A DNA stretch of 64,000 nt, taken from NCBI GenBank assembly GCA_903844155.1, contig CAIMSU010000103.1, forward strand, positions 1-64,000. Direction: 5' to 3'. The notes under the pieces were generated by a model that made no database searches, had not been told where the DNA came from, and worked only from the letters and a program-made list of their open reading frames with translations. Of this stretch, positions 16,293 through 19,500 are shown piece by piece (position 1 is the first letter of the stretch; the number at the start of each line of letters is the position of its first letter). The position numbers and the translations under genes were made by a program. Origin of the DNA: an uncultured Pseudomonadota bacterium (lineage in GTDB: Bacteria > Myxococcota_A > UBA796 > SXON01).

Positions 16293-17420
16293 ATGTCCGA
16301 TCAGACTTCTTCACTCGCCAACGTCGACGCGATCGTCGCCGGCGTCATCGCACCAGCCGCCGCCACTGTCGACCGCGATGGGGCATTTCCCGCCGCTGCC
16401 ATCCGGGCGTTGGGTGAAGCCGGGATCCTCGGCCTTCTCATCCCCGAAGCCAACGGTGGCCTTGGCCTCGGGCCGGACACCGCCGCGCTTGTGGTGGAGC
16501 GCATCGCGGGCGCCTGCGCCAGCACGGCCATGGTCGTCTGCATGCACTTCTCCGGCTCCGCGGTGCTCGCGCAACACGGAACTGTCGAGGTCCAACGCGA
16601 GGTCGCAGCCGGCCGGCACCTCTCCACGCTCGCGTTCTCGGAGACCGGCTCGCGCAGTCACTTCTGGGCGGCGATGTCCAGCGCGAAGGTCGATGGCGAC
16701 ACCGTCGTCCTGGACGCGCAGAAGTCCTGGGTGACGTCTGCGGGCCACGCGACCGCGTACGTCTGGTCGTCGCGCCCGGCGACTGCGGAGGGTTTTTCGA
16801 CGATCTGGCTGGTCCCCCGTGGATCCGCGGGCCTGTCAGCCCCCGCCGGCTTCGACGGCATCGGGCTACGCGGCAACGACTCGACGCCGATCTCGGCCGC
16901 TGGCGTCCGCATTCCCGAGGCGAACCGGCTCGGACCGGACGGCAAGGGCTTTGACGTGATGATGGGGATCGTCCTGCCGAACTTCAACCTGTACAGCGCC
17001 GCCGTCAGCATCGGCCTCGCGAGCGCGGCGCTCGCCCGAACCTGCGCGCACGCGGGCGCGACCAGGCACGAGGAGGCAGGCACGTCGCTCGCCGAATTGC
17101 CGACGATCCGCGCCCACATCGCGCGGATGCAGATCAAGGTGGACATGACCCGGCTGCTCTGGCTCGACACCATCGCGGCGATGGGCGCCGGCAGGCCCGA
17201 CACGATGCTCCGCGTGCTGGAGGTCAAGGCGGCAGCCGCCGAGACCGCGCTGGAGGTCACCGCGACGTGCATGCGCGTGTGCGGCGGCGTCGCGTTTCGC
17301 AAGGAAGTCGGCGTCGATCGCGCGTTCCGCGACGCCCAGGCCGCCAGCGTGATGGGCCCGACGACCGACGTGCTGTGGGATTTCATTGGCAAGGCCGTCA
17401 CCGGCCTGCCGCTCTTCTAA
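16293..17420 (+). CDS. acyl-CoA dehydrogenase family protein
   Basis: GILGLLIPEANGGLGLG, ACASTAMVVCMHFSG, LAFSETGSRSHF, TCMRVCGGVAF; ATG at 16293. Confidence 0.85.
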   Translation: MSDQTSSLANVDAIVAGVIAPAAATVDRDGAFPAAAIRALGEAGILGLLIPEANGGLGLGPDTAALVVERIAGACASTAMVVCMHFSGSAVLAQHGTVEVQREVAAGRHLSTLAFSETGSRSHFWAAMSSAKVDGDTVVLDAQKSWVTSAGHATAYVWSSRPATAEGFSTIWLVPRGSAGLSAPAGFDGIGLRGNDSTPISAAGVRIPEANRLGPDGKGFDVMMGIVLPNFNLYSAAVSIGLASAALARTCAHAGATRHEEAGTSLAELPTIRAHIARMQIKVDMTRLLWLDTIAAMGAGRPDTMLRVLEVKAAAAETALEVTATCMRVCGGVAFRKEVGVDRAFRDAQAASVMGPTTDVLWDFIGKAVTGLPLF

Positions 17421-17440
17421 CCCCGGAAACCGGAGGTACC

Positions 17441-18289
17441 ATGCGCCCTTTCATCCTCGGTGCGGTCGCCTATGACCCAAAGGTCGTAACCATCTGGGAC
17501 GGCTTCAAGCTGTACTTCGAGGCCAACGGCCTGTCGTTCGACTACGTGCTTTTCCACAACTACGAACGGCAGGTCGAAGCCCACTTTGCGGGCGTGATCG
17601 ACGTCGCGTGGAACTCACCGCTGGCATGGGTCCAGGCGCAGCGGATCGCCACCCGCCTCGGGCGAAGGGCCCAGGCGGTGGCGATGCGAGACACCGACCA
17701 GGACCTGACCTCCGTGGTGCTGGTGCGGACCGAGGGGCCGGCGACGATTGCCGACCTGACTGGGCGACGAATCGGCGTTGGAGCAATGGATTCACCGCAG
17801 GCGACGCTACTGCCGCTGCTGCAGCTCGCGGAGCGGGGCCTCGACGTCCACCCCGACCATCCCAATGTCGTCCGGCACGACGTCCTCGTCGGCAAGCACG
17901 GCGACCACATCGGCGGCGAGCGTGAGGCCGTACGGGCGCTCCTGCACGGGGATGTCGATGCTGCCTGCATCATCGACGGCAACCTGGCCGCGTTCACCCA
18001 GGAGGGCACCGTTCGTGCGGGCGCGTTGCGCGTGCTGGCGACGACCCCAGCCTACGACCACTGCAACTTCACCGTGTTGGACGGCACCGCCACCCGACCG
18101 CTGACCCGCTTCCTGGCGTTGCTCCACGGAATGTCCTGGGGCGAGGCGGACACGCGGCGGCTGATGGATCTGGAGGGGCTGAAAGCCTGGCGCCCGGGCA
18201 GGACGACTGGCTACTCGGCGTTGGACCGGGCCTGCACCCGCTTCGGCACCGCCGACGCCTTCGTTGCCCAGCAGGTCGCGCGGGGATGA
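17441..18289 (+). CDS. PhnD/phosphonate-binding-like periplasmic-binding-fold protein without signal peptide
   Basis: FEANGLSFDYVLFHNYERQVEAHFAGVIDVAWNSPLAWVQAQ; starts MRPFILGAVAYDPKV with no leader. Confidence 0.7.
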   Translation: MRPFILGAVAYDPKVVTIWDGFKLYFEANGLSFDYVLFHNYERQVEAHFAGVIDVAWNSPLAWVQAQRIATRLGRRAQAVAMRDTDQDLTSVVLVRTEGPATIADLTGRRIGVGAMDSPQATLLPLLQLAERGLDVHPDHPNVVRHDVLVGKHGDHIGGEREAVRALLHGDVDAACIIDGNLAAFTQEGTVRAGALRVLATTPAYDHCNFTVLDGTATRPLTRFLALLHGMSWGEADTRRLMDLEGLKAWRPGRTTGYSALDRACTRFGTADAFVAQQVARG

Positions 18290-19500
18290 CGCGGCGACGG
18301 GTCGTGGACCTGACCGGCGCGCGCATGGACCAGGGCGCCGCGCTGATCGTCCGCCACGCCCTCGCTGACATGGGGCCGGGCGACGAGGTCCGCGTGGTCG
18401 GCGACGACGCCTCCCTTGTCCCGACGCTGCGGGCGCTCGCACGCGCGCTCGGCGCCCCCTTCACCGTCGAGGCGGATGGCGCCTGCGTCCTCGGCGCGTC
18501 CACCCACCCCGACGGCCGTCGCACCGGCGGCATGCTCGTGCCCACGGCGCCGGCCGACCACGCCCACCCGCGATGGGGCCTCGCGGCGCGCGGTACACTG
18601 GTGGAGGCCGGTGGACCCGAATTCGCCTTTCCGCTCGCCGAGAAGCGCGCCGTCTGGACCGACGAATTGGCGCGGCTCTACGCGCAGGCCGCCGCGGCGC
18701 AGTGGGACCCAGCGACGGCGATCCCGTGGGCCGAGCCGCGCTGCGACGACGACGCCGTGGAGGCCGCGGTCGTGCAGGTCATGGCCTACCTGGTCGAGAA
18801 CGAGACGGCCGCGCTGCTGGTCCCGGCACGCTTCTGCGCCCAGGTTCACCCGCACTTTCGCGAGGTGCTCCAGCTCCTCGCCATCCAGACCGCTGACGAG
18901 GCCCGTCACATCGAGGTTTTTACGCGTCGCGCCGGGTTGGAGGCGCCGCGCGGCCCCGGGCCGGCCCCGATGCCACCCCTCTCGACCGTCGGCGGCCAGA
19001 CCAGCCTGAAGAGCCTCGTTGACGAGCCCGACTTTGCCCTTGCAAGCTTTCTTCTCTCCGTCCTCGGCGAGGGATCGTTCCTGTCCCTGCTCCGGTTCCT
19101 GGACCGCTACGCGCCCGACGCCGTCACCCGCGCCGTCGCCCGCCTCGCCGCGCAGGACGAGGCCCGCCACGTCGCCTTTGGCCTCGCGCACCTCGAACGT
19201 CAGACAGCCCTCGACCCGTCGCTCCGGCCCCAGCTGGCGGCAGCCGTCCACGCGCGCCACGACGCCTTGGCGCACACCGCCGGGTTGAACGCCGAGGTTT
19301 TCGATGCGCTCGTGCTCATCGCCGGCCACCAGCCCAATCGCCCAGCGTGGGACCCCGTCGGCATCGCAACAGGTTGGAACGCCGTGCAGGAGCTGATCGC
19401 CGAGATGGACGCGGGCCGGCAGGTTCGGCTCCGTCGACTCGGGTTCTCGGGGGCCGAGGCCGCGGCGTTGAGCGCGCTGCATACGCGGAATTTCATGTGA
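18286..19500 (+). CDS. fusion: TusA/SirA-like domain + ferritin-like diiron domain
   Basis: VVDLTGARMDQGAALIVRHALADMGPGDEVRVVGDD (TusA-like) followed by ENE...ADEARHIE and GEGS...QDEARH; ATGA overlap with preceding gene. Confidence 0.65.
   Translation: MTRRRVVDLTGARMDQGAALIVRHALADMGPGDEVRVVGDDASLVPTLRALARALGAPFTVEADGACVLGASTHPDGRRTGGMLVPTAPADHAHPRWGLAARGTLVEAGGPEFAFPLAEKRAVWTDELARLYAQAAAAQWDPATAIPWAEPRCDDDAVEAAVVQVMAYLVENETAALLVPARFCAQVHPHFREVLQLLAIQTADEARHIEVFTRRAGLEAPRGPGPAPMPPLSTVGGQTSLKSLVDEPDFALASFLLSVLGEGSFLSLLRFLDRYAPDAVTRAVARLAAQDEARHVAFGLAHLERQTALDPSLRPQLAAAVHARHDALAHTAGLNAEVFDALVLIAGHQPNRPAWDPVGIATGWNAVQELIAEMDAGRQVRLRRLGFSGAEAAALSALHTRNFM

Follow-up and report, generated by a model that had tools for sequence, protein, structure and literature searches.

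A gene in the window (the whole 64,000-nucleotide stretch analysed here, positions 1 to 64,000 of contig CAIMSU010000103.1, assembly GCA_903844155.1, from an uncultured bacterium of GTDB lineage Myxococcota_A) encodes a 404-residue protein in which a TusA-like domain without its sulfur-carrying cysteine is joined to a ferritin-like diiron domain. The gene, located at 18286-19500 from its open reading frame (ORF), Pfam matches and a structure model, is the third and last of a conserved cassette; coordinates given without a locus name are window positions on the + strand. In a second branch, which includes the mycobacteria, the same kind of cysteine-less domain is carried by a radical S-adenosylmethionine (rSAM) protein. 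On balance we favour the view that the TusA-like domain is a docking or adaptor module serving either a diiron or a radical-SAM catalyst in one redox system.

A TusA-like domain at the start of a conserved protein

The ORF at 18286-19500 is a genuine gene, conserved at full length in 15 further genomes from the order (53-66% identity) and at 80 or more additional loci in many phyla. We kept 80 of the 185 loci found, and the resulting family alignment comprises 81 sequences. The cassette with the TusA-diiron gene occurs in Myxococcota, Acidobacteria, Planctomycetes, Nitrosomonadaceae, Burkholderiales and Actinobacteria; its culturable, harmless hosts include Massilia, Variovorax and Novimethylophilus. 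One relative (G020:C377; L018, L025) has a broken TusA-diiron gene with an in-frame TAG and a split match, for which decay or an assembly error is possible.

Pfam, the model and profile comparison assign residues 1-80 (about 1-75; 18286-18525) to the TusA-like domain. The TusA profile PF01206 matches the first 100 residues of the window protein at 16.2 bits (E 0.0097), below the curated cut-off of 28.6, and matches 58 of the 81 family members at E<=0.1 (best 1.1e-6). Profile-profile alignment (hhalign) of the N-terminal domain of the family with 20 canonical TusA sequences gives a probability of 97% (E 9e-11, 59 columns). Controls stayed far below this value, with a maximum of 3.3% among 100 column-shuffles, 0.2% for the reversed profile and at most 0.7% for slices of the neighbouring protein or the ferritin part. 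The AlphaFold2 model (mean predicted local distance difference test score, pLDDT, 91.9) displays over residues 4-70 the same succession of elements as TusA, strand-helix-strand-helix-strand-strand (beta-alpha-beta-alpha-beta-beta), and a helical bundle after the TusA-like part. A plain phmmer search of the protein against the PDB returned no match. Judged from the profiles and the predicted structure, kinship of the domain to TusA is real. A preliminary description of the window had proposed a TusA/SirA-like fold for the first ~75 residues and had staked this on a TusA-fold match for residues 1-80; such a match is given by the profile comparison as well as by the model.

Within the domain, R53 and G56 are invariant and G17 and G39 nearly invariant, and its variation is ~1.7x that of the ferritin part. 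The motif VxxDD, given in the same description as part of the TusA pattern, fits the window copy only (GDD); the family consensus is V-x-G-x-x-P.

The sulfur-carrying cysteine is missing throughout the family

TusA domains normally carry sulfur, by means of a persulfide-carrying Cys in the Cys-Pro (CP) motif. The CP site of the window copy reads R13-M14-D15-Q16, with the codons of M14-D15 (18325-18330) aligned to the Cys-Pro active site of canonical TusA, and the family consensus at this site is G-L-D-R. None of the 81 members has a Cys at the CP position. The alignment thus confirms the earlier reading that RMDQ stands in place of the catalytic Cys, and leads us to reject the idea that the loss is limited to the window genome. 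Across all 81 sequences the CP region contains a single Cys, at locus L060, placed further into the helix.

Helix 2 contains a second Cys (W-C-R-x-x-G-H) in 61 of the 81 diiron-type proteins and in all 15 radical-SAM-type sequences listed; the window copy has Ala at this position (A52, codon 18439-18441). Fifteen of the 20 members without it, one of them truncated, have no Cys anywhere in the N-terminal domain, and the window copy retains a lone, unconserved Cys67. A similar W-C motif is also found in TusA proteins that possess the CP Cys. Because the CP Cys is absent from all 81 members and 15 copies have no Cys in the domain, sulfur relay by the domain can, on the evidence of sequence, be ruled out in the Cys-free copies and is improbable in the family as a whole.

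The remainder of the protein is a predicted diiron enzyme

Residues ~120-404 (18643-19497) make up the ferritin-like domain, as indicated by the AlphaFold2 model, Foldseek and the AurF profile PF11583. Ten residues are invariant in all 81 members: E159, E171, N172, E173, E205, H208, E262, D291, E292 and H295. They include candidates for the six carboxylate/His ligands expected in a four-helix bundle, namely a likely helix-1 iron ligand supplied by one of the two Glu residues of E171-N172-E173 (18796-18804), the motif E205-x-x-H208 (18898-18909), E262 in GEGS (19069-19071) and the motif E292-x-x-H295 (19159-19170). The ferritin-like remainder with ligand-type motifs anticipated in the preliminary description is therefore well founded.

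Foldseek places this part nearest to the solved folds of a VlmB homologue, the aldehyde-deformylating oxygenase (ADO) and R2lox, with 6d9f and 8wvr as best matches. PF11583 matches the window protein at 20.1 bits (E 0.0004), below its curated cut-off of 29.6, and is matched by 72 of the 81 members at E<=0.1 (best 2.5e-9). AurF has an extra His ligand four residues ahead of its last ExxH; the corresponding position 288, four before E292, is Ala, Thr, Val or Ser in the family and never His. Ligands and predicted fold together suggest that the protein belongs to the diiron oxygenase/oxidase class.

The diiron gene closes a three-gene cassette

The TusA-diiron gene follows genes for an acyl-CoA-dehydrogenase (ACAD)-fold flavoprotein and a solute-binding-protein (SBP)-like protein, in the order ACAD, SBP-like, TusA-diiron. 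The SBP-like gene adjoins the TusA-diiron gene in 79/80 loci (one with a 1-kb gap), and the two ORFs overlap in 67 of the 79. In the window the sequence reads ATGA at 18286-18289, combining the stop of gene 2 with the start of the TusA-diiron gene, which suggests that the two are translationally coupled. The complete three-gene set is present in 73 of the 80 loci and in at least six phyla. Within 7 kb on either side of the 80 loci we found no fourth conserved cassette gene and no conserved ATP-binding cassette (ABC) partner genes. The three cassette proteins have correlated pairwise distances (r 0.72-0.77, against a maximum of 0.11 in 200 label permutations). Shared vertical descent alone suffices for this correlation, so that the proteins travel together and physical contact is not implied. 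At two Lampropedia loci (L084:8209-9324, L094:8217-9332) an ACAD gene lies directly downstream of the TusA-diiron gene, and L084 has a second ACAD copy.

Gene 1 (16293-17420, taking ATG 16293 as the start) encodes the Rv1679/FadE16-like flavoprotein. Its score against NCBIfam NF049984, 400 bits with a curated cut-off of 600, marks it as related but below the family threshold. The catalytic Glu is replaced by Gly (VMGPT for IYEGT), and the position is Ala or Gly in all 77 aligned members, among which no alternative catalytic Glu is conserved in helix G, around residues 222-230. Since the catalytic Glu is lost, the sequence argues for an oxidase or monooxygenase as more likely than a dehydrogenase.

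Gene 2 (17438-18289) encodes an Rv1680-like protein with the PhnD/PtxB fold and no signal peptide. It matches PF12974 (Phosphonate-bd) at 91 bits and NF049985 at 222 bits (cut-off 400), and its model (pLDDT 96) is closest in Foldseek to PhnD (7s6g, E 4.6e-20). In 79 of 80 members only 2-12 residues stand ahead of the conserved GAVAY start, and none of the 80 has a hydrophobic leader. The oxyanion loop reads SPQ where PtxB has STS, and the pocket positions carry the invariant residues H154-G-D-H157 and D207-H-C209. Because both loop and pocket differ, the ligand of the PhnD-like protein may differ from that of PtxB. A thiamine-type (THI5/NMT1) role was dropped, as PF09084 scores 16.9 bits, below its cut-off, against the 91 bits of Phosphonate-bd.

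Some genomes have a radical-SAM form of the cassette instead of the diiron form

The window cassette is homologous to the mycobacterial Rv1679-Rv1680-Rv1681 families. One mycobacterium-like genome carries ACAD and SBP genes that score above the NCBIfam thresholds of Rv1679 and Rv1680, together with an overlapping third gene identified as Rv1681 ('MoeX'; 537.6 bits, cut-off 380). The product of this third gene begins with ~65 TusA-like residues without the CP Cys and continues into a radical-SAM domain (CNLSCDYC). The radical-SAM CxxxCxxC (NF049973) is absent from the window protein, so that the N-terminal domain and the cassette alone are common to both forms. Fifteen rSAM N-terminal domains match canonical TusA at 96.5% (E 7.8e-10) and the TusA-diiron domain at 95% (E 2e-8); a mycobacterial third gene without a TusA-like part was rejected on these profile matches. 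Actinobacterial rSAM copies can be aligned from helix 1 only, and their first strand and CP loop are seemingly missing. Two proteobacterial (Pseudomonadota) genomes encode rSAM proteins with a complete TusA-like part, likewise without the CP Cys; in these genomes the TusA-rSAM gene (L252:2383-3495, L253:2385-3497) is convergent to the ACAD-SBP pair, outside the operon.

The two forms exclude each other in the genomes checked. Among sampled Actinomycetes and Pseudomonadota, each close SBP homologue (>165 bits) is accompanied by a TusA-diiron or a TusA-rSAM third gene, rSAM in 12 genomes and diiron in 12 (search centres excluded); SBP matches of 90-116 bits have neither third gene and are other proteins. 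No TusA-diiron protein was detected in 19 rSAM genomes, where the only ferritin matches were weak (<=30 bits), and no full-length Rv1681 above the Rv1681 cut-off in 34 diiron genomes, giving co-occurrence in 0 of 53. On both the SBP and the ACAD trees the type of third gene changes once, dividing the cassettes into two separate groups (support 100/100 for the ACAD split and 99/98 for the SBP diiron group).

The cysteine-less domain as a putative docking module

We propose that the three proteins form a conserved redox system of the cytosol in which the product of gene 3 is the diiron component that activates oxygen, and that the Cys-less TusA-like domain of this product would bring the catalytic domain to a partner. 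We regard the PhnD-like protein as the most likely partner and expect it to hold a substrate that is small and probably anionic. This protein is the better candidate because it is a constant neighbour with overlapping ORFs and the ACAD gene is sometimes absent. In the second branch, formed by mycobacteria and some proteobacteria, the TusA-like domain would be paired with a radical-SAM catalyst, and the two unrelated radical/oxygen chemistries probably perform an equivalent hydrogen-abstraction or oxidation step. The results above establish the domain folds, the loss of the Cys, the conservation of the cassette, the alternative fusions and their mutual exclusion in the genomes checked; what we infer beyond them is docking, its partner, a swap as against two fusions, the equivalence of the reactions and the class of substrate. 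A docking module on a diiron oxidase/oxygenase had been suggested from the window alone, and it gains support from the same type of domain on radical-SAM proteins, from the Cys-free copies and from the faster evolution of the domain.

Several observations weigh against this proposal. The W-C-R Cys is kept in most diiron-type and in all rSAM-type domains seen, and some thiol role outside the sublineage of the window is possible. Several copies have no adjacent ACAD gene (L031, L078, L086, L153, L154, L156), and the system may often consist of two genes plus an optional third. The tree of the N-terminal domain, which is short, is compatible with one origin as well as with two fusions (approximately unbiased (AU) test, p 0.49).

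This last result bears on a less probable but serious alternative, in which TusA-like domains were recruited twice, by separate fusions to diiron and radical-SAM domains, and no swap took place. The domain tree yields no single clade, and the rSAM set as a whole fits canonical TusA slightly better than TusA-diiron. Set against this, both forms lack the CP Cys and both are the third protein of the same cassette, whose SBP and ACAD trees change type once; the complete proteobacterial rSAM domain is moreover closer to TusA-diiron (72 columns, 95.6%) than to canonical TusA (53 columns, 92.7%). The docking reading is independent of the choice between a swap and two fusions.

A further suggestion, of similarly limited probability and compatible with docking, concerns the substrate: a phosphonate-, arsonate- or sulfonate-type compound would be degraded or transformed, with the SBP-like protein presenting the oxyanion. 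That protein has the PhnD/PtxB/HtxB/ArrX/AioX fold, the Rv1681-type rSAM domain is also found fused to a calcineurin-like phosphoesterase, with periplasmic PhnD, PhnE and an ArsM-like methyltransferase of the arsinothricin type encoded next to it, and the neighbourhood of one cassette (L041) includes an ArsM-like gene. The replacement of the PtxB STS by SPQ and the D-H-C and H-G-D-H pocket speak against it, and an ArsM-like neighbour occurs in only 1 of 80 loci and PhnE in none of the 80. The phosphoesterase-radical-SAM fusion is found at L281:6303-11677 and L282:3839-9241, where its rSAM part is Rv1681-like (273 bits) and the neighbouring ArsM-like methyltransferase scores 340 bits against the arsinothricin ArsM model (cut-off 500).

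A purely intramolecular function, as a cap with a structural or substrate-shielding role, is unlikely for the domain, and so is that of a regulatory remnant binding RNA or a ligand. Fast evolution and the few invariant residues (R53, G56) would suit such a function, but a cap shaped for the diiron helical bundle is unexpected on a radical-SAM barrel as well, and the fold is kept over great distances. The remnant reading offered in the preliminary description fares poorly for the same reason, as the fold and some positions (R53 and G56; G17 and G39) are kept across phyla. Least probable is that the domain still moves sulfur through its helix-2 Cys for use by the diiron or rSAM domain, for although sulfur carriers have this fold and the Cys is widely kept, the window copy has Ala, 20 of 81 members lack the Cys, the 15 Cys-free copies have cassette and diiron ligands intact, the W-C-like motif of CP-Cys TusA proteins shows that it need not be catalytic, and the genes around the cassette include no conserved desulfurase or Tus/Dsr partner.

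More tentatively than docking within this cassette, we suggest that the Cys-less TusA-like domain is a general docking module on which whole catalytic domains were exchanged, an oxygen-dependent diiron bundle in one branch and a radical-SAM barrel in the other, in a widespread pathway centred on a cytosolic component with a binding-protein fold. MoeX (Rv1681) would then represent the radical-SAM side of this pathway; neither would it be a molybdopterin enzyme, nor FadE16 a beta-oxidation dehydrogenase. If true, a diiron and a radical-SAM enzyme would serve the same step, which is rare, and to our knowledge this would be the first instance in which both are borne by the same accessory domain.

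Relation to known systems

The window protein resembles the TusA sulfurtransferase (PF01206) in fold and topology. It differs in that its family has no CP Cys, is fused to a diiron domain and has no Tus/Dsr partners conserved nearby. With AurF, the VlmB azoxy synthase, ADO and R2lox it shares the four-helix ferritin-like bundle, two ExxH motifs and Glu ligands; identity is ~20%, and these proteins differ from it in gene context and in having no N-terminal TusA-like domain. VlmH is the ACAD-fold flavin N-hydroxylase of the VlmH/VlmB-type pair, in which an ACAD-fold flavoprotein likewise works with a VlmB-fold diiron enzyme, whereas the window system has a constant PhnD-like partner and a TusA-like domain and shares no common gene cluster with that pair. 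In AcsF/BchE a radical-SAM enzyme replaces a diiron enzyme, so that one pathway step is apparently served by either chemistry; the system described here goes further in that an accessory domain of one kind is fused to both catalytic domains.

The closest relative is Rv1679 (FadE16)-Rv1680-Rv1681 (MoeX) (NF049984, NF049985, NF049973), with homologous ACAD and SBP genes in the same order and a Cys-less TusA-like start of the third protein. The mycobacterial third protein is a radical-SAM enzyme, unlike the diiron protein of the window, and the window proteins score below the curated cut-offs. Rv1681 has been described as a possible molybdopterin protein and a tuberculosis urine marker, Rv1680 as a putative phosphonate transporter component and FadE16 as a beta-oxidation enzyme. 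The literature searched, outside which most subscription journals lay, held no description of the TusA-diiron fusion, the cassette or the catalytic swap. The component families are known; their arrangement is new.

Other ORFs in the window

Downstream of the cassette, a 661-residue ORF (23564-25549) combines a gyrase-B-like ATPase half (HATPase_c, DNA_gyraseB, residues 34-402) with a class I SAM methyltransferase (458-547). No TOPRIM match was reported for it, and an assembly error is possible in so odd a fusion. The region at 21402-23567 encodes a B12-binding radical-SAM protein, with HpnJ/BchE-like scores that stay below cut-off, and after it a small protein resembling rubrerythrin.
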